32,680 nucleotides of DNA, taken from NCBI GenBank assembly GCA_947853665.1, contig CANTXF010000062.1, positions 1 through 32,680 on the forward strand. The letters run 5' to 3'. Position numbers and translations under genes: made by a program. Positions 1,710 through 32,460 of the stretch are shown here, in pieces. The DNA comes from an uncultured Deferribacterales bacterium. GTDB lineage: Bacteria > Chrysiogenota > Deferribacteres > Deferribacterales > Mucispirillaceae. The first letter of the stretch is position 1, and each line of letters opens with the position of its first letter. The notes under the pieces are model-generated. The model did no database searches. It saw only the letters and a list, made by a program, of their open reading frames with translations, and was not told where the DNA came from.

Positions 1710-4700
1710 TTATGCCCTCCTGTCAGCAGGCAGCGTAAGACTTACTTCACACGGGCCGCTCTGGGCGTTGGTTGCCTGGCCCACATATTGCTCGGTCGTT
1801 CCCACATCAAGCGTCAGGATATTTTCCGCCCCGCCTATATCCACCGGAACAGTTACCTGATGGAACTCTTCCGTAATATCGTCCTGCATCCATACCTTTA
1901 CCTTTTCGGTGGGATGGGCTCTGTACCAAGCTCCGTGTTCCACGCTGACCACTCCGGGCGGAATCTGATATACAACCGACGCAGGCAGTTTCGTGCAGCC
2001 CCTGTCGTTATAGACATACACCATATCGCCGTCCTTTATGCCCCTTTCCGCCGCGTCCAGAGGGTTCATTTTAACGACCTGCGTAAACTCGTCCTTAATC
2101 ATAGCCACGTTGTCCAAAACCGTATGGGCCCTGTTCCTGGCTTTATTGGTCATATAATAGAGCCGGTAGGTATCGCCGCTTAAAGGAGATTTAAAGCCGG
2201 TAAAATCCTTTCTCGGGTCGTTATCCTGAAAGAATTTTTCATATCCTTCCATATGGGGCTGATAAGACGCCGTAGCGTTGCGCACGCCGTTATAGTCTAC
2301 GGTAATATCTCTGCCCACAGGGTCTTTGGTATTTACGTCATAACGGGTTTTCTTTCTTATCTTTCCCCACAGGGGAGACCAGAAATTTATTTTGCCGGTC
2401 GAATTTTCAAGCTTCCCGGGTATGCAGTGGTTAAAATCTCTGAATCCGACGAGGGTCTTATCTTTTTCAGGAGGTATAACCGCCTGGGTTGAGCCTTTGG
2501 TTACGAGATCCTCGTAGGAAAACTGCGCGTCCGCCCTGCCGGTGGCTTTTTTATACCATGAAGAAGGCGAAAAGGCCGCAAGAGACGCTTCGCCCAAGGG
2601 AGCGTCCACATAGCCGGAGCTGGGATATGTGGAACCTATGCGGGCGTTTAAACGCTCTACAAGCTCGTACTTTATCTCGTTATCCGTTCTCGTGTCATAC
2701 AGGCGGTCTATTGCCTGTTCCCAGGGAAACAGGGCAGCGGTTGAAACTTCAAGCGTGGTGCCCGATTTCTCATAGTGGCTCGTAACGGGAAGGATAATCG
2801 TAGAGTAAAGGGCGGACGGCGTCATAACCTGATCCAGGCATATAACCGTGGGTATTTTCTTGATGGCGGCTATATTTTTATTAATATTCTCGGCGGTGGT
2901 AACGATATTGTTTTCCGTCATAAACCAAACGTCCACCTCTACCAGGTGTCTGCCGTCGGGAACGTTCTCAAGGTTTACCGGGGTTACGTCCTTATACTGG
3001 GTCTGCCCGTTTTCATCGGTATACTTCTGCTTGGAGGTGGTTCTCTTCACATCCTTTTTAAACTGCTCGGCGGTACGCCTGTCCTTTCCCGTAAGCACAA
3101 GGTGGGCCCAGTTGTTCATCGGGATATAGATGGCGTTCATAAGAGAAGCGTCTCCAAGCATACCGGAAGGAGCGACGAGCCCTATATCAAGGCCACCTGT
3201 AACGGCCGGATTAAGCCCCACCGCGGCGATATCCGGATGGGCCATCATAGAGAAGCCCGCGCCTCCTCCGGCTTTATCTATATTTCCCGTCATGGCGGCA
3301 AGAGATATCATAAGCCAGACCCACTCAAAGCCGTTCCATGCTCTTTGAGGCCCGCCGCCCACATCCAGAAGGGCCGACTCCGCCTCGGCGTATTTAAACG
3401 CCAGAGCCTCTATAACGTCCGCAGGAACGCCTGTAAGCCGTTCGGCGTAATTAAGGACGGATTTATACGAAGCGTCCCCGACCGAGGCCGCCTGTTTAGG
3501 CTGTTTATAAAGATAGCTTTCCGTATTGGCATCTACCTCCGCTCCGGCCCAGTCTACCTCCAGACTCAGCAGATATTCGGAAAAAGACTCTCCCGCCGGA
3601 ACTTTAAATCTTGCCCCGGTATAGGCGAAGTCTTTTTTAAATTTTTTGCCGTCTTCGTCTTTAAAGTCTTCCGGCGATTTCATGTTTTTGCTGTGTCCGT
3701 ACGTAAAGGATGAAACTGTGCTGTATGCGTTGCCGTCCGCATCGGTAATGGGCTGACCCGTTCCTGGGTCCACGGCGCAGGGCGCGGTACTAATGCACTC
3801 GTCCCCCGGGAAAAAGCCGAAAGACTTGCCGTTATCTTTATCAACGTAAGAATGGTCGTACAAATCGTTTTTATATATTACGTAAGCCATGGCAGCCGCA
3901 AGGGCTCCGTCGGTAGCCGGGCGGCACGGTATCCAGCCGGGAATATCCACCGTTTTCGACTCCCCTCCTCTCGAATACTGATAGCCGGGAACGCCGGAAG
4001 CTATTATTGCCGCAGAATCGTTATAATTGGTAGTAATGGAAACGACCGGAATACCCATTTCTCTGGCTTTGGTATTATACCAATGGGCATGGGCAACATG
4101 ATATGTGGTCCTGCTAGGGTCGAGACCCCAGGTTATTATGAATTTGGAATTGAACCTGTCGCTTAAATTGTTGGTAAGAGCGTCCACGCCAACGGCGTCG
4201 TATTTTGCACCGTCCACGGCTCCGGTGGATTCGTTCCCCAGGAAATGTATGCACGGAGCCACCTTTTCGTCCATAAAATAGTCGAACTGGCTCAGCGTGC
4301 CTATCCATTTTATCATGAGGGGCGTATAACCCAGCTCCGCCTTTCTTTCCACGGCTTTTGCGATAGCCTCTACGGCGGCGTTCATAGCGTTATCCCAGGT
4401 AACGCGCTTGAAGCATTCCACCTTGCCCCTGTCCTCCTCGCCAGCGCCGAACCACCTTAAAGGGTATTTGAGCTTATCGGGCTGGTAAAGCCTCTGGATA
4501 TACGAATACCCTCTTACGCAGGCGCGGTATTGTATATCGTTAAAATTTTCACCTATGGATTCGTCGCTTGCGGCGCTTCCCTCTCTCGGAATATCACCGG
4601 CGGAAGTAAATTTTACTATTCTGCCGTTTTTTACCTGAAGCTTATGGACACAGCGGGCCCCGCAGTTATAAGCGCCCGACGAAAAACATTGTTTCATCGT

Positions 4701-15532: not shown

Positions 15533-15937
15533 AAAATACGGGCGGCTAACCCTTGAAATAACAAACCGTATACGAGGTAAAATCCCGCCTGTGCCAGGAA
15601 ACATATATCCTTTCTTAAAAGTTCGGCTGATAAATCCTTAAAAAAACGGCCGCAGACTCTCTTTCTGCCGTCACTCCGGCGGGAGCAGTATTCACTTATC
15701 TTACAAAAGCGTACCTGTAAAACAAAAGCCCTGCCCCTGCCGCATATTTACGCCCACAAGCCTTTCCTGCAGATCTTAACACACCGTAATCCAAGGAGAG
15801 GCTATCGCGTACCAGTCCGGAATTCTCATAACATTAGTGATAGGATCGGGCAAATATTCGAGAGTATCGAGTATTTATGGCATTAAATATTAATTATATA
15901 AGAAAACCGGACTAAATATTTAAAGGAGAATAAGATT
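15533..15937 (+). other. Intergenic region upstream of the hydrolase locus
   Basis: About 0.4 kb without a supportable gene. It holds a hairpin next to seven A at 15640-15671 (terminator-like if read on the minus strand), a run of C-rich sequence around 15725-15765, the inverted repeat at 15852-15876, and an AT-rich promoter-like segment ending in AAAGGAG, the ribosome-binding site for the gene at 15938. No small open frame with a good start was found. Confidence 0.55.
15852..15876. promoter_or_regulatory. Inverted repeat upstream of the exported hydrolase gene
   Basis: Arms AAATATTCGA (15852-15861) and TCGAGTATTT (15867-15876) match as an inverted repeat with one mismatch around a 5-base spacer. 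It lies about 60 bases before the start codon, a place expected for an operator or activator site. The binding protein is unknown; the AraC-family regulator at 18085 is the obvious candidate, although AraC proteins usually bind direct repeats. Confidence 0.35.
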
Positions 15938-16981
15938 ATGAAAAAAATTATTGTGACGGCGATTTTAAGCGCGTCCTTAATGACGGGAACAGGCCTGGCA
16001 AAGGAAAGTAAAAATCCTTTCGGCCTTGTTTATGACGGAGCAATAAGGGAAAATATAGCCGGCAAGGTAAATATACGCCCGGTCAGTTATAAATTGCACG
16101 GATTGAATATTGCCGCCAATATTTACACCCCTGCCGGTTATGACCCGTCCAAAAAATATCCTGCGATAGTTATAGCCCATCCTAACGGCGGAGTAAAAGA
16201 ACAGGTAGCCGGGCTCTACGCGCAGCGTCTGGCGGAAAAAGGCTATATTACGCTGGTGGCTGACGCCGCCTACCAGGGAGCAAGCGGCGGCGAACCGCGC
16301 CACACTGATAAACCAGCCTATCGTGAAGAGGATATTCACGGAATGGCGGATTATATTTCCCAATATCCCGGCGCAGACGTCAGGAGATTAGGAGTTTTGG
16401 GAATATGCGGAGGAGGCGGCTATACGGTTAAAGCCGCGCAGTCCGATAAACGTTTTAAAGCCGTGGCGGCTTTAAGCATGTTCAATTCCGGCCGGGTGCG
16501 CCGCAACGGCTATGCGGACAGCCAGTTGGAAACAATACAGGAACGTTTGAAAAAAGCGTCCGACGCAAGGGCGCGCGAAGCCGCGACAGGCGAAGCATCT
16601 CTTACGGGCAAAATGGATTTCAGCGACGAAGCAATAGCGAAACTGCCCTACGACTTATACAGAGAGGGAGCGGTTTATTACGGCAGGACGCACGCCCATC
16701 CCAATTCTACTTTCGAATATACGGAAAGCAGCCTTATGAATTTGTTTACATGGGACGCTACGGACCAAATAGAGCTTATCAACCAGCCTCTCCTGATGAT
16801 AGCCGGAGAAAAAGCCGATTCCCTTTATATGTCCAAGGACGCCTTTGAAAAAGCGACCGGCACCAAGGATAAGGAATTATTTCTGATTCCGAACGCCACC
16901 CATATTCAGACTTACTATGTGCCCGAATATGTGGACGCCGCCGTAAATAAGCTTGTTAAATTCTTCGGCGAAAAGCTCTGA
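15938..16981 (+). CDS. Exported alpha/beta hydrolase with cysteine nucleophile motif (YcjY/dienelactone-hydrolase-like)
   Basis: A 347-residue protein with a Sec signal peptide (MKKIIVTAILSASLMTGTGL, then AKES), so it is periplasmic. The core shows the alpha/beta hydrolase pattern: IVIAHPNGG near residues 77-85 (oxyanion region), nucleophile elbow GICGGGGY with Cys157, acid candidate D294 in GEKADS, and His322 in NATHIQTYY. A cysteine at the nucleophile position is seen in dienelactone hydrolases and in YcjY-type proteins, which this most resembles. The substrate is unknown; esters or lactones are plausible. It begins after a good AAAGGAG site and ends 12 bases before a second exported hydrolase gene, so the two form an operon. 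Confidence 0.88.
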   Translation: MKKIIVTAILSASLMTGTGLAKESKNPFGLVYDGAIRENIAGKVNIRPVSYKLHGLNIAANIYTPAGYDPSKKYPAIVIAHPNGGVKEQVAGLYAQRLAEKGYITLVADAAYQGASGGEPRHTDKPAYREEDIHGMADYISQYPGADVRRLGVLGICGGGGYTVKAAQSDKRFKAVAALSMFNSGRVRRNGYADSQLETIQERLKKASDARAREAATGEASLTGKMDFSDEAIAKLPYDLYREGAVYYGRTHAHPNSTFEYTESSLMNLFTWDATDQIELINQPLLMIAGEKADSLYMSKDAFEKATGTKDKELFLIPNATHIQTYYVPEYVDAAVNKLVKFFGEKL

Positions 16982-16993
16982 CCAGGTGGAAAG

Positions 16994-18052
16994 ATGAAAA
17001 AATTTTTACTCATAGCTCTGGTAGCAATATTAACCAATGGCTGTGGAGTCTCTGAACGGATTAATATTGGAAAGCAAGGAGTATTTACCGTTGGAGGCAC
17101 AGTAATCCACAAAGAAGGAATTTACGATAATTCTAAATTTATCGCATGGGACAAGCAGAATGAAACCGGTCAAAGTTATCATGCCGACCATGCCTTTGTA
17201 AATTATCAAATCCCAGTAAACGCTAATAAGTTTCCGTTATATTTCATTCATGGATACGGCGGATCAGGTGTTTGCTGGGAAATGACCCCTGACGGACGCG
17301 ATGGCTTTTCGACTTTAATGCTGCGCAAAAGATATGCGACTTACGTCATGGATTTGCCAGGACGGGGACGCGCCGGCCGTACTACTGCTGAAAACATTGT
17401 TAAGCCCATGGCAGACGAAATGTTCTGGTTTGATATATGGCGCATCGGCTTGTGGCCTGATTTTAACGAAGGGGTACAGTTTCCACGTAACCCGGAATAT
17501 ATTACCCAATTCTTCAGAGAATTAACTCCAGATTTGAGCAATCATAATCTTGATATCCCGGCGATTAACGCATTGGCAGATAAAATAGGCGGCGGCATAC
17601 TGGTAACCCACTCGGCGGCAGGTTATCCGGGGTGGAAAGCCGCCATACATAACAATAACATCAAAGGTATAGCGGCCTATGAGCCTGGAGGATATGTTTT
17701 TCCGGAAAACGAAATGCCTGATCCTATGGAAAGCCTCACCGGAACGCTGAGCGGAATTCCAGTCAAAATGGAAGATTTTAAAAAATTGACCCAAATACCA
17801 ATTGTTATATACTTTGGAGATTATATTCCTGAAGAACCAAGCCGGAATCTGGGAAGCGAAAACTGGCGGGTTCGCCTGCAAATGGCAAGGAAATTTGTTG
17901 AAACCATCAACAAACACAACGGAAAAGCAACCATTATAGAGCTTCCGAAGATAGGCGTTTACGGAAACACCCACTTCCTCATGCAAGACCTGAATAGTGA
18001 TGTTATCGCCGATCTGTTGGACAAATGGCTTAAAGAGAATAATCTTAAATAA
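16994..18052 (+). CDS. Alpha/beta hydrolase lipoprotein
   Basis: A 352-residue protein with a lipoprotein-type signal (ILTNGC; probable lipidated Cys17). YFIHGYGGSG (84-92 region) is the oxyanion-hole motif, THSAAG holds the probable nucleophile Ser207, and GNTHFLMQD holds the probable catalytic His327. The segment VMDLPGRGRAGRT is typical of the alpha/beta hydrolase core. Function and substrate are unknown; enzymes of this type act on esters, lactones or epoxides. It is encoded directly after another exported hydrolase. Codon use differs from the neighbours: by my count only about 11 of roughly 29 isoleucine codons are ATA, whereas flanking core genes use ATA almost throughout. This suggests a more recent acquisition of this part of the locus. 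Confidence 0.87.
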   Translation: MKKFLLIALVAILTNGCGVSERINIGKQGVFTVGGTVIHKEGIYDNSKFIAWDKQNETGQSYHADHAFVNYQIPVNANKFPLYFIHGYGGSGVCWEMTPDGRDGFSTLMLRKRYATYVMDLPGRGRAGRTTAENIVKPMADEMFWFDIWRIGLWPDFNEGVQFPRNPEYITQFFRELTPDLSNHNLDIPAINALADKIGGGILVTHSAAGYPGWKAAIHNNNIKGIAAYEPGGYVFPENEMPDPMESLTGTLSGIPVKMEDFKKLTQIPIVIYFGDYIPEEPSRNLGSENWRVRLQMARKFVETINKHNGKATIIELPKIGVYGNTHFLMQDLNSDVIADLLDKWLKENNLK

Positions 18053-18074
18053 TTTTTTAAAAATTTATAAGCCT

Positions 18075-18120
18075 AGAGCGGGCGTCAATCAATGTTTTTT
18101 ATCTGATTGACGTCCGCTCT
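18075..18120 (-). terminator. Long hairpin between convergent genes, overlapping the AraC-type stop codon
   Basis: Arms at 18075-18091 and 18104-18120 form a 17-bp stem with a single G-T type mismatch and a 12-base loop. The stop codon of the regulator (18085-18087) lies inside the left arm, so its last codons are part of the stem. On the minus strand the hairpin is followed by AT-rich sequence with a short T run. It probably ends the regulator transcript and may also stop readthrough from the hydrolase operon. Confidence 0.6.
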
Positions 18121-18975
18121 GGGAGGCTGGCCGAACATCCTTTTATATTCGCGGTTAAACTGGCTCACGCTCTCATAGCCCACCTCGTAGGCCGCGTTAG
18201 CCGTATCGAAATTCTCCGACAGCATAAGCCGCTGGGCTTCATAAAGCCTAAGACGTTTCTGATACTGCAGAGGGCTTAAGCTGGTAACTTTGCTGAAATG
18301 GCGGTAAAATGAAGATTCAGCCATATTAAATCTTTTTGCCAGACTTTCAATTTTAAGCGGCTTGCGGAAATTATCTTTCAGCCATGTAATGGCTCCGGCT
18401 ATCTGGTTGTTTCTGGAACCTTTCGTGTTGACGGAATAAAGGATATCTCCGAGCGGAGAAGTTAAAAGCAGATAATGTATCTCTTTTATAATCATCGGAG
18501 CCATGACCTTTTGCCTCTCCGGCCGTTCGGACAGCAATATAAGGCGATAAAAGGCGTCTAGCAGCCCTTCGTCCGCTTCCGCCGCCATCATCCCGCGTCC
18601 CGAGTTTTCCGCGTGCGGATAATCCGCCTGGCTCAAAAGCCGGCCTATAACGTAATTATCCAATTCCAGAATGAGCGTCATAAAAGGTTTTTCCGGGCTT
18701 GCTTCGATAATGCTGCCTACGGTGGGAATATCGATAGATGTAACCACAAGAGTATTCTCTTTATATGTAAACCTCTCCGAACCTAAAACCGTCTGCTTTT
18801 TGCCCTGGAGAACTATAATGGCCATAGGCTTATAAAAACAGTGCTGATTAAACGTAGGCGCGGTTCTCAGGGATAGGCTGAATCCCGGTATACCGGTAAG
18901 GAATATCCCCGGTTCGGGAAAAAAATCCATTATCTTATTTTTTAACAGGTCTCGTTTTTCTTTCAGGCTGTCCAT
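18085..18975 (-). CDS. AraC-family transcriptional regulator with AraC_N-type sensor domain
   Basis: From the chosen start the product has 296 residues. The N-terminal about 175 residues resemble the AraC_N cupin-like domain (YKPMAIIVLQGKKQTVLG, VTSIDIPTVGSI). The C-terminal double helix-turn-helix is clear: SLAKRFNMAESSFYRHFSKV, then ANAAYEVGYESVSQFNREYK and MFGQPP. A longer frame starts at 18996, but a GGAG site sits 8 bases before the ATG at 18975, which I prefer. It is convergent with the hydrolase operon and divergent from the decarboxylase/cupin gene, the usual arrangement for a local activator. Related regulators (YqhC group) often sense reactive carbonyl or electrophilic compounds; that role here is an inference. 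Its 3' end lies in a long hairpin. Confidence 0.9.
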   Translation of the reverse strand: MDSLKEKRDLLKNKIMDFFPEPGIFLTGIPGFSLSLRTAPTFNQHCFYKPMAIIVLQGKKQTVLGSERFTYKENTLVVTSIDIPTVGSIIEASPEKPFMTLILELDNYVIGRLLSQADYPHAENSGRGMMAAEADEGLLDAFYRLILLSERPERQKVMAPMIIKEIHYLLLTSPLGDILYSVNTKGSRNNQIAGAITWLKDNFRKPLKIESLAKRFNMAESSFYRHFSKVTSLSPLQYQKRLRLYEAQRLMLSENFDTANAAYEVGYESVSQFNREYKRMFGQPPRADVNQIKNID

Positions 18976-19229
18976 AAAATTTGCTCCGTAAATCACATGA
19001 TAAATTATATTTCTCCGTATGCAAACACAAATTGAGAGAAAAAGGCAATTTTTTGACAGTATCGGATATATAAATAACGGAAAAGAAAACTAAAATAAAA
19101 TAAGGCAGAAAAGCTGCCAAAATATATTTTCCGGCCGGGCGTTCGGCTAAAATAAAAGCGGCGCATGAACATGGACAGCCGTAACATTAACGCCTGAATA
19201 CCAATATGCCGGGCAAAGGAGCAGCATTA

Positions 19230-20252
19230 ATGATGAAAAATGTTTTGATTTTACTGACGTTCGTAATAATTACGCTATCGGGGGAAAATATCATGGCAGA
19301 AGAAACACTGAACGCCAGGCAAAAAGCAATCGCTTCAGCAGCGTCTTACGCCGCGCGCGGAAATCAGGACGGCCTTAAACTGGCGCTAACCGACGGCCTT
19401 AACGCAGGCGTCGCGGTCAATGAATTTAAAGAAATACTGGTGCAGGTTTACGCTTACTGCGGATTTCCAAGAAGCTTAAACGCACTGAACACGCTTATGG
19501 CTGCGGTGGAGGAACGCGGCGGAAAAGATAAGCAGGGCAAAGCCCCAGGTAAAAAGCCGGAAGGAAGCAGCCTTATATACGGCGCGGAAAATCAAACGAA
19601 GCTCATCGGCAGGCCCGTCTCCGGTAAAATTTATGAATTTGCCCCAGTAATCGACGAATATCTTAAAGCTCATCTATTCGGCGATATATTTGCGCGGGAC
19701 AACGTCGATTGGCAAACCAGAGAACTGGCCACCATAGCAATGCTTGCCTCCTTAACAAATACAGAAAACCAGCTTAAGAGCCATATATCAGTCGGAAAAT
19801 ATAACGGTTTAACCGATAAGCAGATAGAAGAAATTCTTGAAATTGCAGGCCGCGCGAAAGCGGCAGACACACTTTTCGGCTTTGGGGATGAAAACGCCGC
19901 TTACGCTGAATATTTCAGCGGCAAAAGCTATCTCCAGCCGTTAACAAAAAAGGGCATAAACGCATCCAACGTTACCTTTGAACCAAAATCCAGGAATAAC
20001 TGGCATATTCACCGTAAAAGCGGGCAAACACTGCTTGTAACATCGGGCAGAGGGTATTATCAGGAATGGGGAAAGCCTGCGCGGGAACTTAAAGCCGGAG
20101 ACGTAGTAGAGATAGAAGAAGGCGTAAAACACTGGCACGGAGCGGCAAAAGACAGCTGGTTCACGCATATTGCACTATCTGCGCCTGTGAAAGAGGCTTC
20201 CACCCAATGGCTTGAACCTGTATCCGACGAAGAATACGGCAGACTGAAATAG
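19230..20252 (+). CDS. Exported carboxymuconolactone-decarboxylase-like protein fused to a C-terminal cupin
   Basis: From the chosen start the product has 340 residues. The start is the ATG at 19230, 8 bases after AAAGGAG; a frame-extending ATG at 19206 has no such site. A Sec signal peptide (VLILLTFVIITLSG, cleavage probably near ENIMA) is present, unusual for this family. Two carboxymuconolactone-decarboxylase-like (AhpD-fold) units follow: one around VAVNEFKEILVQVYAYCGFP and one around DWQTRELATIAMLASL. The AhpD CxxC is absent; the first unit has a lone Cys77. The C-terminal cupin carries candidate metal ligands H259, H261, Q266 and H301 (WHIH...KHWH). Known relatives act in the cytoplasm on lactones, peroxides or quinone-like compounds; the substrate here is unknown. 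It is divergent from the AraC-type gene. Confidence 0.87.
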   Translation: MMKNVLILLTFVIITLSGENIMAEETLNARQKAIASAASYAARGNQDGLKLALTDGLNAGVAVNEFKEILVQVYAYCGFPRSLNALNTLMAAVEERGGKDKQGKAPGKKPEGSSLIYGAENQTKLIGRPVSGKIYEFAPVIDEYLKAHLFGDIFARDNVDWQTRELATIAMLASLTNTENQLKSHISVGKYNGLTDKQIEEILEIAGRAKAADTLFGFGDENAAYAEYFSGKSYLQPLTKKGINASNVTFEPKSRNNWHIHRKSGQTLLVTSGRGYYQEWGKPARELKAGDVVEIEEGVKHWHGAAKDSWFTHIALSAPVKEASTQWLEPVSDEEYGRLK

Positions 20253-20279: not shown

Positions 20280-21311
20280 TTACGACAAAGCGCTCCGGCA
20301 GACGTTTCGCCTTGAAATATCCACTACGGAAAGCATGCTGTCGTTCATCCTATCAAGAAGGGCCTCCACGCCCTTCTCCACTTTATAGGCCATTTCTTCC
20401 TCATAAAGCGGCACTACCTGATAAAAATTAATTTCCCCGCCAGCTACCTGGCATACGGCGGCACCGTCTCCGAAAGGGGCGGGAGCAAGCAGAATGGAAC
20501 CGGTAAAACCAGCGTTTTCAGCCAGCGGATGCCCGCAGGAAACGGTATGCCCCCAGCCCAGCCATGTGCCTCCGCGGCCCGGAAAACGCGCCAGGGATTT
20601 AAGCAGACGCACAGGCCAGCGCCATCTTTCATCTTCGCTTTTAACATTCCATTCCGGAGGCAGGCAAAGAAGAAGCTCCGCACGCTCAAGCATTACGCCG
20701 CAAAGCCCCTCGGGCACGTTCATCTCGCGGGCGCCCATGCCCACCGTTACAAGCGTGTAAAAATTTCTTTCCGGCGAGGGCTCCGCCATAAAAATATCGA
20801 CCTGTATATCGGGCGACACTATTTCGCGCAGTACCTCCGAGCAGGAGCCGAAATACCTGACGATATGCTCCGAAACTGCTCTGAGCGACTCCTGCGGATA
20901 TATTACTGGGTCGTAATCATCAGCAGCTGCGCAGTCCGCCGTTTTAAACGTCGTTTCCATACCAAGCCTGCCGCGGCACCAGCGTATAAAAGTCCTTGTG
21001 TCCCCGTCTTCGGGGTCAAGCTCCAGAGCCCTTTCAAATTCCTCCAGAGCAAGCCTTTCCATCTGCATAAAATAGTAGGAATATCCAGCCCTGAAATGCC
21101 AGAGAGGGTCTCCCGAGCCCTGGTCGGCAACGGAAAAAAGAAGGTCGAGAGCATCCGGATACCTGCCCGAATTATTGTAGGCTCTGGCAAGAATGCCTTT
21201 AAGAGCGTAGTCCATTCCCTCTTTGCCGAGACCTTCCAGAGTTTTTATTATTTTTTCGTGTTCGTCTCCGTCGTGCCAAAGCATCAGCAATTCAAAAAAT
21301 TCGGGATTCAT
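20280..21311 (-). CDS. TPR protein with suppressor-of-fused (SUFU) domain
   Basis: A 343-residue cytoplasmic protein. Residues about 30-115 form tetratricopeptide repeats (ALKGILARAYNNSGRYPDAL, then LWHFRAGYSYYFMQMERLAL and EEFERALELDPEDG). The rest, about 140-335, resembles the bacterial SUFU domain: FYTLVTVGMGAREMNVP, LLLCLPPEWNVKSED, WPVRLLKSLARFPGRGGTWL. Bacterial SUFU domains are described as immunity or chaperone-like proteins in polymorphic toxin loci, though most have no tested function. No toxin gene is adjacent, so this may be a stand-alone member. A strong GGGGAGG site lies 5 bases before the ATG. It is convergent with the decarboxylase/cupin gene and divergent from the BI-1 gene. 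Confidence 0.78.
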   Translation of the reverse strand: MNPEFFELLMLWHDGDEHEKIIKTLEGLGKEGMDYALKGILARAYNNSGRYPDALDLLFSVADQGSGDPLWHFRAGYSYYFMQMERLALEEFERALELDPEDGDTRTFIRWCRGRLGMETTFKTADCAAADDYDPVIYPQESLRAVSEHIVRYFGSCSEVLREIVSPDIQVDIFMAEPSPERNFYTLVTVGMGAREMNVPEGLCGVMLERAELLLCLPPEWNVKSEDERWRWPVRLLKSLARFPGRGGTWLGWGHTVSCGHPLAENAGFTGSILLAPAPFGDGAAVCQVAGGEINFYQVVPLYEEEMAYKVEKGVEALLDRMNDSMLSVVDISRRNVCRSALS

Positions 21312-26011: not shown

Positions 26012-27751
26012 ATGTATTTGAAAAAAATGGCGGCACTGTTCGCTCTGACCTTATCGGCGGCTCTTTTTGGCTGCCACGGCGACGGCGGCGTCAATCCGGC
26101 AATATATCCGCCCGCCGCTCCGGAAAATATAAGCGTGCGCGGCGGAGACGGAACATTACTGGTCTCTTGGAGCCTTGCTGACGACGCGGAAAATTACGGA
26201 GTTTATATCTCCGAGCTGGAAAACGGCGATTACAGACCGGTACAGACCGTATTTGCCCCGGCTGTTACGATAACCGGCCTTAATAACGGCACCGCCTACT
26301 GGGTAAGGGTAAACGCGGTTAATCTGGGAGGATCAAGCTCTTTTTCGAAAGCGGTTTCCGGAACTCCTGACGCTTACGCGTCTTTGCCGAAAGGCCCTGC
26401 CGGGTTTACGGCCGAACCGGGGGACGGAAAAGCAATTCTGGCATGGTTACAATCAGAAAACGCGGAAAGCTACAATATTTACGTTTCCGAGGACAACGGA
26501 ATAAATTTCTCTTTCCTATACAACCTTACCGGGCTGTCATACACGGCAGAAAGCCTTATAAACGGAGATTCATACATATTTGCCGTAACGGCCTTGAACG
26601 GTGCCGGCGAAAGCGGCATGGCAAAATCCTCCCCGGTAATTCCGGCGGCTCCAGGCTATCCGCCCGCCGCTCCAGAAAATATGACCCTGTCTCCCGGAAA
26701 CGGAAAAATAACCGTGTCGTGGAGCCCTGTGGCGGGAGCGGAAGGCTATATAGTGTATGAAAGCGTTAATCCGGGAGGAATATTCTACCCTGCGGGCACC
26801 ACAAAAAGCACGGACTGCATGGTAGGCGGCCTTGTCAACGGCTCGCCCTACTGGTTTACCGTAACGGCAGTGAATAAAGCCGGAACCGGAGAACCGGCGG
26901 CTGTTCTGGAGGCCGTGCCGTCAAACCACGTAACCGTGCCTGATATAGTAAAGGGCGTAACGCTGACGGCCGGAGACGGAACGGTATATCTGGAATGGCG
27001 TCCGTCAGCAGGGGCGGAAAGCTATAACGTGTACCACGCGGAAGCGGAAAACGGCCCCTTCTCTCTGTTGGGAAACACGCCCGAAACAAGCTATGAAGCT
27101 TCCGGCCTTAAAAACGGCGTTACCCACTGGTTCAGAATAACGGCGCTAAACAACGCGGGAGAAAGCCCTGCCTCCGTATCCGTGTTCGCTTCAACGCGCG
27201 CGCCGGTTGCTCCGAAAGCTCCGGTCGGGATATACGTCAAATCCGCCGACAAGGCGGCCTACGTCTCATGGGCACCGGTTTTCGGAGCCGCTCTATATAA
27301 CGTTTATACGGCGTCTGCTGAAACGGGACCTTTTGTGAAAGCTGCTTCAAACGTTTCTTCTCCATATACGGCCTCGGGGCTTATAAACGGGAAGAAATAC
27401 TGGTTTACGGTAACGGCTGTAAACAATGCGGGAGAAAGTCCGCAAAGCGCGCCTGCGGGCGTTACGCCGGAAGTTCCTGCAAAGGCCCCTGCCGCGCCTT
27501 CCGCTCTTACGGCCTCCGCTGATAACGGCGCGATAATGCTTAAATGGAACCCTGTGCCCGGAACGTCGTGGTATAACGTATATATGAGCCAAAGCGAAAA
27601 AGGTATGTACATAAAAATACGCAGCGCCTCAGAAGCGTCGGAAACGATAGAGGGGCTTGAAGTTACCGGCCCAGTGTGGTTTAAAGTATCGGCGGAAAAC
27701 GCCGGAGGGGAAAGCCCCATGAGCGCTCCCGCCGCCGCATCGCTAAACTGA
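26012..27751 (+). CDS. Lipoprotein made of six fibronectin type III domains
   Basis: A 579-residue protein with a lipoprotein signal (ALTLSAALFGC, probable lipidated Cys21). After a short linker come six fibronectin type III domains of about 85-95 residues, the first at about 34-119, the second at 128-213 and the third from about 218. Each carries the pattern G-D/N-G...W...A-x-x-Y-x-V/I-Y and ends near NGxxYWFxVTAVNxxGES. Domains 1 and 3 both open with YPPAAPEN, pointing to internal duplication. No catalytic domain is seen, so a surface or periplasmic binding, spacer or adhesion role is likely. AAGGAG lies 5 bases before the ATG. Terminators upstream (25956) and downstream (27771) make it a single-gene unit. 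Confidence 0.92.
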   Translation: MYLKKMAALFALTLSAALFGCHGDGGVNPAIYPPAAPENISVRGGDGTLLVSWSLADDAENYGVYISELENGDYRPVQTVFAPAVTITGLNNGTAYWVRVNAVNLGGSSSFSKAVSGTPDAYASLPKGPAGFTAEPGDGKAILAWLQSENAESYNIYVSEDNGINFSFLYNLTGLSYTAESLINGDSYIFAVTALNGAGESGMAKSSPVIPAAPGYPPAAPENMTLSPGNGKITVSWSPVAGAEGYIVYESVNPGGIFYPAGTTKSTDCMVGGLVNGSPYWFTVTAVNKAGTGEPAAVLEAVPSNHVTVPDIVKGVTLTAGDGTVYLEWRPSAGAESYNVYHAEAENGPFSLLGNTPETSYEASGLKNGVTHWFRITALNNAGESPASVSVFASTRAPVAPKAPVGIYVKSADKAAYVSWAPVFGAALYNVYTASAETGPFVKAASNVSSPYTASGLINGKKYWFTVTAVNNAGESPQSAPAGVTPEVPAKAPAAPSALTASADNGAIMLKWNPVPGTSWYNVYMSQSEKGMYIKIRSASEASETIEGLEVTGPVWFKVSAENAGGESPMSAPAAASLN

Positions 27752-27890: not shown

Positions 27891-28919
27891 ATGAAATCCG
27901 CCTGCGCGGCGCTTTTCTTATTTTTACTTACGGGATCCGCATGGGCCGGGGAAAGCGTAACGCCCTACGAAAAAAGAAGCCTGTCCGTAATAAGCGACAA
28001 CGACGCTTATTCCAGCTCCTGGCGGGATATGTATTACACAGCGGGCAACAGACTCGTATATACTGACAGAGAGCGGGATTATTGCGGCGAAAAAACGGCT
28101 TACGAAAAGGATTCGTCATTCAAATGCTCCGCTCTGCGGCCTCTCGGCATGATAAGCCTGCTGAAAGGCCCCAAGGCAACTAAATGGGATATAGCCCTGG
28201 CTCAGGAAATATATACTCCGAAAAATGAAAACGCTCCGGCGGAAGGAATACAGGATTATCCTTACGCAGGGCTGCTTTATATATCCGCCGGTCTTACTCA
28301 CAGAAACAAAAACACGGAAGAAAGGCTTAAACTCCTGGCAGGTGTGGCGGGCCCCGCCGCAATGGCCGAACAAACTCAGAAATTTATACACTCCTTTTTG
28401 GGAATAGGCAGAAAAATGCCCGGTTGGGACAGCCAGATGAATAACGAACCCGTGGCAAATCTGTACTACCGGATAACAAAAAAATATTTCCTCCTAGAAC
28501 ACTCCGGTCTGGGTGCGGATATTTTGCCGTCCGCCTCGGCGGCTTTCGGAAACGCGGACATATACATTGCTATGTCAGGGCGGATACGGCTCGGCTATAA
28601 TCTGGACGGGGATTTCGGCGTTTCGTCGGACGACGGCCCGGCAGATTCGTCAACGCCCCACGACGACGGGTTCGGTATCTATATTTTTGCCGGAGCCACA
28701 GGAAAATACGTTATCAGAAACATAATAATAAACGGAAATACTTTCGGCCACGGCTCGGGCCTTCATATGGAAAACCTTACTTACGGGTTTGAAATCGGTG
28801 CGGCGGTATTATTTAAAGGAACAAGAATAAGCTATACCTTTAACCGCCGCAGCCGGGAGTTTTCGTCCCAGTCCTCTCACTCGGAATTCGCGTCGATAGC
28901 AGTTCAGATCGCCTTCTGA
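27891..28919 (+). CDS. LpxR-like lipid A deacylase family outer-membrane protein (DUF2219)
   Basis: From the chosen start the product has 342 residues with a Sec signal peptide (MKSACAALFLFLLTGSAWAG). The longer frame opens with TTG at 27825 and would hide the signal; I chose the ATG at 27891, preceded by GGAGG. The mature protein opens with SLSVISDNDAY and then DMYYTAGNRLVYT, and continues with DYPYAGLLYISAGLTHRN and GWDSQMNNEP, the family signature of LpxR. Catalytic-type residues by analogy are N37, D38, T50 and H137. LpxR is a 12-strand calcium-dependent barrel that removes the 3'-acyloxyacyl chain of lipid A; alternating strands and the terminal phenylalanine (VQIAF) fit an outer-membrane barrel. 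Activity in this organism is inferred only from the motifs. Confidence 0.87.
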   Translation: MKSACAALFLFLLTGSAWAGESVTPYEKRSLSVISDNDAYSSSWRDMYYTAGNRLVYTDRERDYCGEKTAYEKDSSFKCSALRPLGMISLLKGPKATKWDIALAQEIYTPKNENAPAEGIQDYPYAGLLYISAGLTHRNKNTEERLKLLAGVAGPAAMAEQTQKFIHSFLGIGRKMPGWDSQMNNEPVANLYYRITKKYFLLEHSGLGADILPSASAAFGNADIYIAMSGRIRLGYNLDGDFGVSSDDGPADSSTPHDDGFGIYIFAGATGKYVIRNIIINGNTFGHGSGLHMENLTYGFEIGAAVLFKGTRISYTFNRRSREFSSQSSHSEFASIAVQIAF

Positions 28920-28995: not shown

Positions 28996-30156
28996 TTATC
29001 TGAATTTCTTAACGTCCGCCGGAGTTATCTTTACAGCCGGGTTGCCGAACCGACCCGTTACGAAAGAGGCTATTGCGGCTATTTCTCCGTCGTCAAGCTC
29101 GCCGGAAAAAGCGGGCATAAAAGCGGTTTTACCGCCGTAAGTACGCTCCGTGCCGTTTAATATCACCATAATAAGGTTATTGGGCTCCGAAGCTCCCACC
29201 GTTGAATTATGGGTCAATGAAGGAAATCCGCCTACAGCCGCAGAATCGTTCCCCTCTCCCGTAAAGCCGTGGCAGGAAGCGCAGTATCCGTTATAAAGGA
29301 CGGCTCCGTCCTTATCCTCCGGCTTATCGAGGCGCACCATGGCTTTTCTCAGGGAATTGACACCGTCATAAGGCTCTCCCCATTCAAAACGGGCTTTCTC
29401 CTCCCCTCCGCCGTAAGGGGCGGCGCTTTTAAGATACACGGCGACAGCCTTTCTGTCGCTATCGCTCAGAAGCCCGGAAGAAACCTCCACGAAAAGCCCC
29501 ATGCCGGATATGGCGTTTCCCTTTCCGGGCACCACGCCGTCTTTAAGATATTTTTCTATATCCTCCGAGCTCCATTTGCCTATCCCGGCCGCCGGGTCGG
29601 AAGTGATATTGTAAGCAGTCCATTCCGTTTCATAAACCCCGCCGGAAAGCGGCTTTCCGCCTTCCTCAGGGGAATGGCAAGCCCCGCATCGGCCCAAAGC
29701 CTCAACGAGATACATGCCGCGGTTATACTGAGGGGTTTTGGAGGTATCCTCCTTAAATGGGGAAGCGGCGGGAAGCGCTCCGCCTACCGATATTTTTTCG
29801 CCCGGAAAGGCGGTTTTCATATAATATTCGTACAGCTTAACCGTGTCTCCGTCCGTAATGCGGGCGTAATATTTCCACGGCATAATATCGCCCATATCGG
29901 AGCCGTCGGGAAGCTTGCCCTGACGCAGGGCGGAAGCGAACTGGGCTTCCGTAAGAGCTTCGGTGTTCAGGGGTATTTTGCCGGAATCGTCATCACCGGA
30001 AGTCAGGGAATGACATTCGGCGCAGCCTGCCGCCGCATAGAGATATTCGGGCGTATCAGACGCGGTTTTTTCCTTTTTACCGCAGCCGCAAACGAAAACC
30101 AACATAGCTAGAACCGCGCCGTATAACGCGATATGGCGTTTTTTATGGAATATCAT
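28996..30156 (-). CDS. Triheme cytochrome c lipoprotein, subunit of an FAD dehydrogenase complex
   Basis: A 386-residue protein with a lipoprotein-type signal (AMLVFVCGCG). Three heme-c motifs, C45-AE-C48-H, C157-GA-C160-H and C292-AS-C295-H, sit in three cytochrome domains of about 110-130 residues. RGMYLVEALGRCGACHSPEE followed by TAYNITSDPAAGIGKWSSED is the hallmark of the cytochrome subunit of gluconate, sorbitol and alcohol dehydrogenases. It should take electrons from the flavoprotein and pass them to quinone or other periplasmic carriers. It is somewhat shorter than typical family members (about 430-480), mainly at the C-terminus, which usually has a membrane-binding segment; here the lipid anchor may replace it. 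It is the last gene of the operon, 10 bases after the flavoprotein. Confidence 0.9.
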   Translation of the reverse strand: MIFHKKRHIALYGAVLAMLVFVCGCGKKEKTASDTPEYLYAAAGCAECHSLTSGDDDSGKIPLNTEALTEAQFASALRQGKLPDGSDMGDIMPWKYYARITDGDTVKLYEYYMKTAFPGEKISVGGALPAASPFKEDTSKTPQYNRGMYLVEALGRCGACHSPEEGGKPLSGGVYETEWTAYNITSDPAAGIGKWSSEDIEKYLKDGVVPGKGNAISGMGLFVEVSSGLLSDSDRKAVAVYLKSAAPYGGGEEKARFEWGEPYDGVNSLRKAMVRLDKPEDKDGAVLYNGYCASCHGFTGEGNDSAAVGGFPSLTHNSTVGASEPNNLIMVILNGTERTYGGKTAFMPAFSGELDDGEIAAIASFVTGRFGNPAVKITPADVKKFR

Positions 30157-30166
30157 TAATCTCTCC

Positions 30167-31771
30167 TTACCCTTTCGCGGTTTCTTTTAAAAGAGCGTCC
30201 GCAAGACGCAGGCACAGGGCGCTTATCGTAAGGGTGGAATTTACCGTTCCGGCGCTCGCCATAACGCTGCCCGACGCTATAAAAAGATTGGGATGGTCGT
30301 GGGTTCTCAAATCCCTGTCCACTACGGAATCCTTAGGGTCGTCGCCCATTATCGTAGTTCCCATCATGTGGTTGTTGTTCATATAGGAATCCGTATAGGC
30401 TATCTCCGTGCCGCCGAAAATTTCCGCCAGCTTTCCGAAATGCCCTCTGGTAAAAGCCGCCCCTTTATCCACATAATCGTCTATGGAATAATGTATCTCC
30501 GGATAGGGAATACCCAGAACGTCCTTAAAGCTTCCGCTTACAGTAACTCTGTTTTCCGGCCTGGGAAGAATATCGAACATACTGTTGAAAATAACCCAGC
30601 GGGAGGCGTAATCCCTTATCATGGAGTTTAGCTTCTCGCCGTAGATACCTTTCGACAGGAGATATTCCGTTATACCTCTGGCGGAGGAATAATTGCCCAG
30701 GTTTATTTTTACGGCCGCCCTTTCCTTCCTGAAATCGCCGTCGCAGAAATCCGGAATACAGCTTGCCCTCATAGGCCCCCGCCCCGGATACATGGGCTCT
30801 TTGGAGAGAAAACGCACGCTTGTTCCAGGATGGTCCATAAGGTTGCGCCCCACCTGGCCGGAAGAGTTGGCCATGCCGTCAGGATATTTCGAACTGGCGG
30901 AAATAAGCAGCAGCTTGGGGATCTCTATGGCGTTGGCGGCAAGAACGAATATCTTTCCTTTGACCCTGTGAGACGAACCGTCCGGCGTTTTGTATAAAAC
31001 GGCGCTTATACGGCCCTTATTGTCGTGCTCTATCTTATAAACAACGCAGTTTTCATGTATAACCGCCCCGGCCTTCTCCGCCTTTCTTACGGCCGTTTCC
31101 CCGGTATATTGGGCTTCTATGGGACATATAGGCATACAGTTGCTGTTCCCCGCGCAGGCGGGCCTTCCGTCGAAGGGTCTGGTGTTTCTGGCCACAGGCT
31201 CTGTTATAAGATTATAACCGGAAGGCTTTATGGTATCTCCAACCTTTTTGTCAAAGGAAGGAAGAGCCATAGCCGGATTGGGAAAAGGCTTGGACCTGGG
31301 AGCGGGCCAGCCTTCTTCCGGGCCTCCGACGCCCATCTCGACTTCCGCCTCATAATAGTAAGGCTCAAGCTCGTCGTATGTAACGGCCCAATCTCTGCCA
31401 ACTCCGTATTTAGATTTCATGATGAAATCGCTGGGGAGCATACGCCATGCCATACCGGCCCAGTGCCACAGGGTTCCGCCCACCATACGCATATATCCCG
31501 CCGGATATCCGTGAGGCCCCGCCTGAACGGGATAATTATTACTCGGCGAATATTGGGGATGAATGGCGTATGGCGCGGGAGGATAAGGCGACTGGAAATC
31601 TCCCTTATAGGGGGAGTTCCTGAAATTTTCCACAATGTGTGATCTGGTTACCCTAGGCCCGGCCTCAAGTATAAGCACATCCGCCCCTTTTGCCGCCAGT
31701 CTTGAGCCTATAAGACACCCGGACACACCGGAGCCGACAATGACCACGTCGGCGGAATTTTTTTCATTCAT
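30167..31771 (-). CDS. GMC-family FAD dehydrogenase, catalytic subunit (gluconate/sorbitol/glucose dehydrogenase type)
   Basis: A 534-residue flavoprotein. The FAD-binding Rossmann motif is GSGVSG (13-18) with DVLILEAGP after it. The conserved MVGGTLWHWAGMAWRM segment (about 96-111) and the C-x5-C-x3-C motif C206/C212/C216 (CAGNSNCMPICP), which holds a [3Fe-4S] cluster in related FAD-dependent glucose dehydrogenases, are intact. The catalytic pair is probably H468 (NNNHMMG) and N511 (AGTVNSTLT). It has no signal peptide; export is expected with the Tat-signal small subunit encoded just upstream. The enzyme oxidises a sugar acid, polyol or aldose in the periplasm; the exact substrate is not predictable. 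Short spacings (3 and 10 bases) tie all three subunits into one operon. Confidence 0.92.
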   Translation of the reverse strand: MNEKNSADVVIVGSGVSGCLIGSRLAAKGADVLILEAGPRVTRSHIVENFRNSPYKGDFQSPYPPAPYAIHPQYSPSNNYPVQAGPHGYPAGYMRMVGGTLWHWAGMAWRMLPSDFIMKSKYGVGRDWAVTYDELEPYYYEAEVEMGVGGPEEGWPAPRSKPFPNPAMALPSFDKKVGDTIKPSGYNLITEPVARNTRPFDGRPACAGNSNCMPICPIEAQYTGETAVRKAEKAGAVIHENCVVYKIEHDNKGRISAVLYKTPDGSSHRVKGKIFVLAANAIEIPKLLLISASSKYPDGMANSSGQVGRNLMDHPGTSVRFLSKEPMYPGRGPMRASCIPDFCDGDFRKERAAVKINLGNYSSARGITEYLLSKGIYGEKLNSMIRDYASRWVIFNSMFDILPRPENRVTVSGSFKDVLGIPYPEIHYSIDDYVDKGAAFTRGHFGKLAEIFGGTEIAYTDSYMNNNHMMGTTIMGDDPKDSVVDRDLRTHDHPNLFIASGSVMASAGTVNSTLTISALCLRLADALLKETAKG

Positions 31772-31774
31772 CTA

Positions 31775-32296
31775 TCAACCCTCCCTGTCAGCCGCAAGAG
31801 GCGGATTTACCCAGGAGCCGTAGGCCCCGGTGGAATAAGACGGAATAACGGCAATATCCGCCACTGGAGCGAACATTAAAGCGTCCTCATAAGCCACGGC
31901 CACGGCGTTCTTGCCTTCGCCGACCACGCCGAGATACCACGCCCTGGCTATTTTTCCCGGAACGGCGGAAATGTCCCCGGCTTTTTTATTAAGCTCCTCC
32001 TGAAGATTTTCGGCGGAAACTCCGGAAGAAGCCGCAAACTTATCGAGAGCCCGCAAATTTTTAACGAACTCTTTATCGCTTACTGAAAGGGAGGCGAATA
32101 TCTTTCTGCCGAGAACCGGGTCCAGCTTCGCCCTCCCGGTCAGGAAAAGGGAGGTTTTCATAAAAACGGCAAAATCGTCCTCCGCTCCGAAAACGAATCC
32201 GGGCGTGCCAAACGAACCGGCAAAAACCGCCGCGCCCGCGGCGAAAAGGAAACCACGCCGCCTTACCGGCAAATCGAATAGTTTTTCTGCGACCAT
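31775..32296 (-). CDS. Small subunit of FAD dehydrogenase complex (gluconate 2-dehydrogenase subunit 3 type), Tat-exported
   Basis: From the chosen start the product has 173 residues. A Tat signal is present: LPVRRRGFLFAAGAAVFAGS. The mature part has the small-subunit pattern FMKTSLFLTGRAKLDPVLGR followed by LSVSDKEFVKNLRALDKFAA. This subunit is needed for folding and export of the flavoprotein, which lacks its own signal. A longer frame starts at 32308, but GGAGAAAG inside that extension is ideally placed for the ATG at 32296, so I chose the shorter form. The C-terminal part ends with TGAYGSWVNPP, typical for this family. It is the first gene of the dehydrogenase operon and lies next to a 0.4-kb non-coding stretch with a repeat. 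Confidence 0.88.
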   Translation of the reverse strand: MVAEKLFDLPVRRRGFLFAAGAAVFAGSFGTPGFVFGAEDDFAVFMKTSLFLTGRAKLDPVLGRKIFASLSVSDKEFVKNLRALDKFAASSGVSAENLQEELNKKAGDISAVPGKIARAWYLGVVGEGKNAVAVAYEDALMFAPVADIAVIPSYSTGAYGSWVNPPLAADREG

Positions 32297-32460
32297 ATCT
32301 TTCTCCATATTAAGAAATAGGCGTAATATAAAAGCACTGAAAAAATTATATTAAACGACCGTATTTCATATTACTCCCTGTGTGAAGGCGCGTCAACGTA
32401 TATGCGGAATCTATTGAAATTATATCTTTCCGGCACGGCGTCAATAAAGAAAATAAAAGG
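32297..32460 (-). promoter_or_regulatory. Upstream region of the FAD dehydrogenase operon
   Basis: AT-rich sequence between the start of the small-subunit gene and the repeat copy at 32461. It should hold the operon promoter, but no convincing pair of boxes was identified. Together with the repeat it makes up the gene-free last 384 bases of the window. Confidence 0.35.

Follow-up and report, generated by a model that had tools for sequence, protein, structure and literature searches.

The four genes at 15.9–20.3 kb of the window, the whole 32,680-nucleotide stretch of an uncultured Deferribacterales genome that was analysed here, are best read as a horizontally transferred, dedicated regulon in which an AraC_N activator would act through two operators upon three exported enzymes that destroy electrophilic compounds, an interpretation that we consider somewhat more probable than all others together. 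All four are real ORFs with clear family matches, and the neighbourhood outlined by the original prediction, two exported alpha/beta hydrolases accompanied by an AraC_N regulator and an exported CMD-CMD-cupin fusion, is borne out (Table 1). Since this unit is conserved elsewhere and has one operator in common, it is very probable, as judged from comparative sequence analysis, that the adjacent AraC_N protein regulates its members together.

Table 1. Features of the locus, of the remainder of the window, and of two related operator types elsewhere in the genome
Feature	Position	Strand	Details
Operator 1 (predicted), upstream of hydrolase operon	15838..15877	+	TGATAGGATCGGGCAA-ATATT-CGAGAGTATCGAGTATTTA
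Candidate -10, hydrolase operon (predicted)	15897..15902	+	TATAAG; +59 from operator start
Gene 1, exported YcjY/PA2218-type alpha/beta hydrolase (DLH superfamily)	15938..16981	+	Sec signal peptide; Cys157 nucleophile
Gene 2, exported SulE/esterase-713-type alpha/beta hydrolase, possible lipoprotein	16994..18052	+	Triad Ser207-Glu230-His327
Gene 3, AraC_N (YqhC-group) transcription activator	18085..18975	-	Pfam AraC_N, HTH_18; single Cys
Operator 2 (predicted), divergent regulator/CMD-cupin spacer	19033..19072	+	TGAGAGAAAAAGGCAA-TTTTT-TGACAGTATCGGATATATA
Candidate -10, CMD-cupin gene (predicted)	19091..19096	+	TAAAAT; +58 from operator start
Gene 4, exported CMD-CMD-cupin fusion	19233..20252	+	Cupin of TM1010 / (R)-hydroxynitrile-lyase type
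SUFU-domain bacterial protein	20280-21311	-	N-terminal TPR region; Pfam SUFU 1.1e-42
Exported fibronectin type III protein	26012-27751	+	About five domains
LpxR-family outer membrane lipid A deacylase	27897-28919	+	Pfam 3.8e-75
GMC oxidoreductase, multi-haem-domain cytochrome c, small Tat-type protein	28996-32308	-	Resembles membrane gluconate/sorbitol dehydrogenase set
Second operator type	G000:C16:249062-249098 (L074); G000:C61:2373-2409 (L075)		TGAGCARATCGGGCAAG-N5-GG-N3-TATCGTATCT
Third operator type	G000:C1:2457-2494 and 3459-3496 (L076)		TCGGCAGAAAATGATA-N2-TTTT-N-GRCAGTATYGCATAT

The exported enzymes

Gene 1 matches the Pfam DLH family (1.1e-10), its nearest relatives in the PDB being E. 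coli YcjY (5xb6, 5e-57) and P. aeruginosa PA2218 (2hdw, 4e-46), and both Cys157 and His322 are invariant in all 33 homologues compared. Gene 2 belongs to Abhydrolase_6 and is related to Parabacteroides BDI_1566 (PDB 4q34, 2e-86), SulE (1.5e-55) and esterase 713 (3e-42). Its Ser207, Glu230 and His327, invariant in 39/39 homologues, align with Ser209, Glu232 and His333 of SulE, a triad established by mutagenesis (PMC10356948). Like the SulE family, described as having a Ser-Glu-His triad without GxSxG and a signal peptide (PMC10356948), gene 2 combines such a triad with a THSAAG motif in place of GxSxG and an N-terminal signal.

Gene 4, starting at the ATG at 19230/19233 (preceded by AAAGGAG) and not at 19206, contains CMD (1.3e-19) and Cupin_2 (4e-9) domains and has PDB relatives 2f4p, 4bif and 4uxa. 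Homologues of known structure thus extend to the two hydrolases as well as to the CMD and cupin domains of the fusion. Residues His267, His269, Gln274, His309, His311 and Cys85 (numbered from 19206) are invariant in 16/16 proteins; Cys85, within YCGFPR, is the sole invariant cysteine of the CMD domains, from which the AhpD/RclX CXXC motif is absent. Two specific identities were considered for this protein and rejected, a strict (R)-mandelonitrile lyase (NCBIfam MandnitrLy, NF049940; 5e-36, 123.3 bits, below the cut-off of 140) and the 4-carboxymuconolactone decarboxylase PcaC (TIGR02425; 67.4 bits, below the equivalog cut-off of 155.7).

N-terminal export signals are found on genes 1, 2 and 4 of the window, and the alphaproteobacterial and Bacteroidales orthologues carry them too, in part as lipoprotein-type and in part as plain Sec-type signals, so that location in the envelope is a conserved property. 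The proposal that all enzymes of the locus leave the cytoplasm is thereby upheld, with a reservation concerning the lipoprotein nature of gene 2. Here the lipobox (LTNG-C) is atypical, while close alphaproteobacterial orthologues mostly carry a (M/V)(T/S)A(A)C lipobox and other orthologues plain Sec signals; export of gene 2 is thus well supported by these predicted signals, and lipidation less so. The accompanying suggestion that export is unusual for such families is only partly right, and does not apply to the SulE family, since SulE itself is reported to possess a signal peptide (PMC10356948).

The regulator and its predicted operators

Gene 3 contains an AraC_N domain (PF06719, 2.9e-42) and an AraC-type HTH (HTH_18, 1.5e-19). 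Its start is the ATG at 18975 and not the GTG at 18996, as indicated both by a Shine-Dalgarno sequence and by the orthologues, which places its single cysteine, in the sequence QHCFYKP, at residue 46. This cysteine is kept in close orthologues of the regulator and replaced in more distant AraC_N proteins; that it might serve in sensing electrophiles is at present a guess.

Upstream regions of the orthologues have in common a 40-bp direct-repeat site, TGAtAGaATcaGGCAA-N5-TGAGAGcATc.gGTcTtTA, whose half-sites are spaced by 21 bp and agree in 8-11 of 16 bases. This site, predicted here by comparison as a new element, stands at the promoters of both transcription units of the locus, the second copy lying in the divergent spacer adjacent to the regulator, as in the AraC_N (YqhC) group. 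A scoring matrix built from six alphaproteobacterial sites alone gave 40.4 bits at operator 1 and 37.2 at operator 2, compared to -2.6 at the third-best place in the window and a maximum of 8.5 in 20 shuffles. With up to three mismatches allowed, the pattern has no matches in shuffles of the window, and the two operators are its only matches in the 2.43-Mb genome; in six alphaproteobacterial carrier genomes 9/9 matches fall at the locus and a reversed control gave none. These counts and those that follow are the more independent evidence, the pattern having been first spotted among upstream sequences to which the window itself had contributed. Across 96 related alphaproteobacterial genomes, the two that encode the regulator are also the two that have operators with no more than one mismatch, and two further genomes have one three-mismatch match each, of the kind expected by chance. 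A shorter shared word, AGTATCG, was discarded as a motif, being not conserved in orthologues and superseded by the full site. A diverged form of the operator, e.g. TGATAGTATTAGGCAAAAATTAGACTGTATCATATATTGT, is seen upstream of the CMD-cupin gene in 6/6 genomes of the same family (L077-L082).

The distance from operator to candidate -10 element is similar at both promoters of the window and at most orthologous sites. At offsets of +58 and +59, half-site 2 would overlap the -35 region, the classical position for activation by AraC-type proteins.

Conserved linkage and ancestry

Conservation of the neighbourhood was assessed at 44 SulE-like loci taken from named genomes, with gene 2 serving as an anchor without regard to its neighbours. 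Co-occurrence in other genomes, on which the original prediction had been made to depend, was indeed found: all four genes appear in the same order and orientation on three contigs of gut-type Alphaproteobacteria (L005, L007, L040), a fourth locus (L045) begins inside gene 2 and has all the rest, and another (L004) has genes 1-3, the orthologues at these loci being 68-79% identical to those of the window. Genes 4, 1 and 2 stand in a row at five other loci (L018, L021, L029, L030, L031). Within 6 kb of the anchor, a CMD/cupin gene is present at 33/44 loci, a YcjY-type gene at 25/44 and both at 22/44, and the AraC_N regulator at 7/44, while the flanking genes of the window (cytidylate kinase-like, SUFU-TPR, Bax1-I, GGDEF/EAL) occur at 0/44. 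In the Bacteroidales version, cupin and CMD genes are separate and stand beside gene 2; a YcjY gene is usually near, and the AraC protein is a different one that lacks the AraC_N domain. Recurrent partners at other SulE-like loci are aldo/keto reductase (AKR), flavodoxin, FMN reductase, RibD-like reductase and Fe-ADH genes.

When 16 CMD-CMD-cupin proteins were placed in a tree, the window copy joined the four from gut Alphaproteobacteria with a support of 100/100 and stood away from the six same-family copies, so that vertical inheritance of the CMD-cupin gene within the family was rejected. Gene 2 is found in 0/14 other same-family genomes searched, and elsewhere in the order in a single genome. 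Taken together, the tree and this near-absence indicate that the four-gene unit most likely moved horizontally; the GC profile is unremarkable and shows no composition anomaly that would add to this evidence.

Proposed parallel AraC_N circuits in the same genome

The genome encodes two further AraC_N regulators, and two other operator types have exactly two matches each within it (Table 1). The second type stands before a dehydrogenase-like gene next to one AraC_N paralogue (contig C61) and, on contig C16, before a flavodoxin/cupin/CMD/AKR group, and the third on either side of the other paralogue, which adjoins AKR, cyclophilin-like and flavodoxin genes; both patterns were derived from the matched places themselves, so that only their absence elsewhere constitutes a test. 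By inference from this proximity, each operator type would belong to its adjacent AraC_N regulator, which suggests that the three are insulated paralogous circuits. Among these three regulons, that of the window alone has exclusively exported-enzyme targets. One genome would then hold three AraC_N regulons side by side, each with an operator of its own.

Proposed function and alternatives

Given a regulator from the AraC_N (YqhC) group and, in other genomes, reductase and flavodoxin neighbours, an electrophile/carbonyl/ester detoxification regulon is the best reading, and detoxification of this kind at the gut-bacterial cell envelope is most likely its purpose. The activator would bind the two direct-repeat operators and switch on the bicistronic hydrolase operon and the divergent CMD-CMD-cupin gene, presumably by way of half-site 2 overlapping the -35 region, upon sensing electrophiles, perhaps through its only cysteine. 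The three enzymes, exported to the periplasm or envelope, would destroy electrophilic compounds there: the two hydrolases, SulE-type esterase and YcjY-type Cys enzyme, may open esters or lactones, in an order and on substrates that are conjectural, and the metal-cupin/CMD protein may act on the resulting carbonyl or oxo-acid. These enzyme families are promiscuous, and consequently their names do not fix the reaction.

The idea that the enzymes form a periplasmic pathway for a lactone, ester or reactive carbonyl compound sensed by the regulator is in part sustained, by the conserved unit, the common operator and the export kept in orthologues. However, the cytoplasmic reductases and flavodoxins of the wider neighbourhoods favour a general electrophile/carbonyl defence over a catabolic pathway devoted to a single compound. 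The same partners weigh against a nutritional role, in which exported esterase and lactonase would act on a dietary or plant ester, freeing an acid or alcohol that the cell could use, and the regulator would sense that compound. The CMD and DLH families are named for steps of aromatic catabolism, two hydrolases and a CMD protein could work in series, and it is mainly gut-type bacteria, from several phyla, that show the linkage; yet the recurrent partners are not catabolic genes or transporters, and the CMD-cupin protein scores under both the PcaC and the hydroxynitrile lyase equivalog cut-offs, leaving this role rather unlikely.

Lower still stands the inactivation of signals or antibiotics (quorum quenching or xenobiotic resistance), whereby the hydrolases would open acyl-homoserine lactones or the lactone and ester antibiotics of neighbours. 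An envelope position would suit an attack on incoming compounds, gene 2 is kin to a xenobiotic esterase, and gene 1 weakly matches the model of the AHL lactonase UilS (NF047920; 1.5e-17), but with 64.3 bits it falls far short of the equivalog cut-off of 400, so that identity with UilS was rejected. To our knowledge these hosts do not typically signal through AHLs, which further counts against such a role, and the CMD-cupin protein and the reductase neighbours would be left unexplained; we therefore regard it as improbable. As for a fortuitous assembly of unrelated genes, each family is common by itself, but gene order conserved across phyla, a unique common operator and correlated ancestry render it exceedingly unlikely, and cross-phylum linkage together with the common operator led to its dismissal.

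Returning to detoxification at the envelope, a bolder form of this reading may be offered tentatively, as a possibility with the odds against it: a mobile, self-contained defence module passing between gut phyla, with a single-cysteine AraC_N sensor, a private operator and exported enzymes only, could be the periplasmic counterpart of the cytoplasmic YqhC response. Its target would be one particular ester, lactone or carbonyl toxin of gut origin, and the two paralogous AraC_N regulons of the same genome would be insulated from it. More broadly, the findings point to an envelope arm of reactive-compound defence shared by horizontal transfer among gut Alphaproteobacteria, Deferribacterota-like bacteria (as would follow from the present locus) and, with other regulators, Bacteroidales. 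They also supply, for an AraC_N regulator from a lineage distant from Enterobacteria, a precise predicted operator together with two target promoters, and with such an operator the inducer should be searchable by a simple reporter.

Relation to known systems

The locus had been put forward as an undescribed small system. Within the literature searched no description of the combined four-gene set and its operator was found, and in this sense the term holds; it does not extend to the components, all of which are of known families, or to the architecture, which parallels that of yqhC-yqhD-dkgA. Gene 1 is homologous to YcjY and PA2218 along approximately 290 residues, its N-terminal export signal falling outside the region aligned with YcjY, and scores far under the cut-off of the UilS lactonase model. 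Gene 2 shares full-length homology and the same Ser-Glu-His triad with SulE, esterase 713 and BDI_1566. For SulE, detoxification by de-esterification is proven (PMC10356948), but the enzyme acts on sulfonylurea herbicides, which are not expected as substrates of gene 2 in a gut bacterium. The cupin of gene 4 is homologous to TM1010 and to (R)-hydroxynitrile lyase of the Granulicella tundricola type, with a conserved HxH...Q...H arrangement of likely metal ligands, and differs from these in being fused to two CMD domains and exported. A shared theme is offered by Pseudomonas aeruginosa, in which RclX, a CMD-superfamily protein protecting against HOCl, is controlled by the AraC-family regulator RclR; however, RclX is AhpD-like with a CXXC motif, unlike the CMD domains of gene 4, and the regulator of the window is of the AraC_N type rather than RclR.

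A close parallel is the carbonyl-stress locus yqhC-yqhD-dkgA of E. coli, whose activator YqhC is 30.5% identical to gene 3 over 272 aa (6e-39). YqhC is reported to respond to glyoxal and furfural, although a direct action of electrophiles upon it has been stated to be unclear (PMC5297802), and was reported to bind the yqhC-yqhD spacer only (PMC8249747). When a 10-kb E. coli stretch around yqhC was scored, this very spacer was the top-scoring place, sharing the half-site AGAAATAGGCAA, but reached only -1.1 bits, so that resemblance to the operator is confined to one half-site; E. coli genomes searched with the spacer of the locus gave no match. YqhD-type Fe-ADH and DkgA-type AKR genes are absent from the locus in the window and present only in some other SulE-like loci. 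The two systems have homologous AraC_N activators transcribed divergently from their targets; in both, the target promoters are few and lie beside the regulator, and a half-site is conserved in the spacer, but the window locus has two operators, and in contrast to the cytoplasmic NADPH aldehyde reductases of E. coli, its targets are exported hydrolases and an exported CMD-cupin protein.
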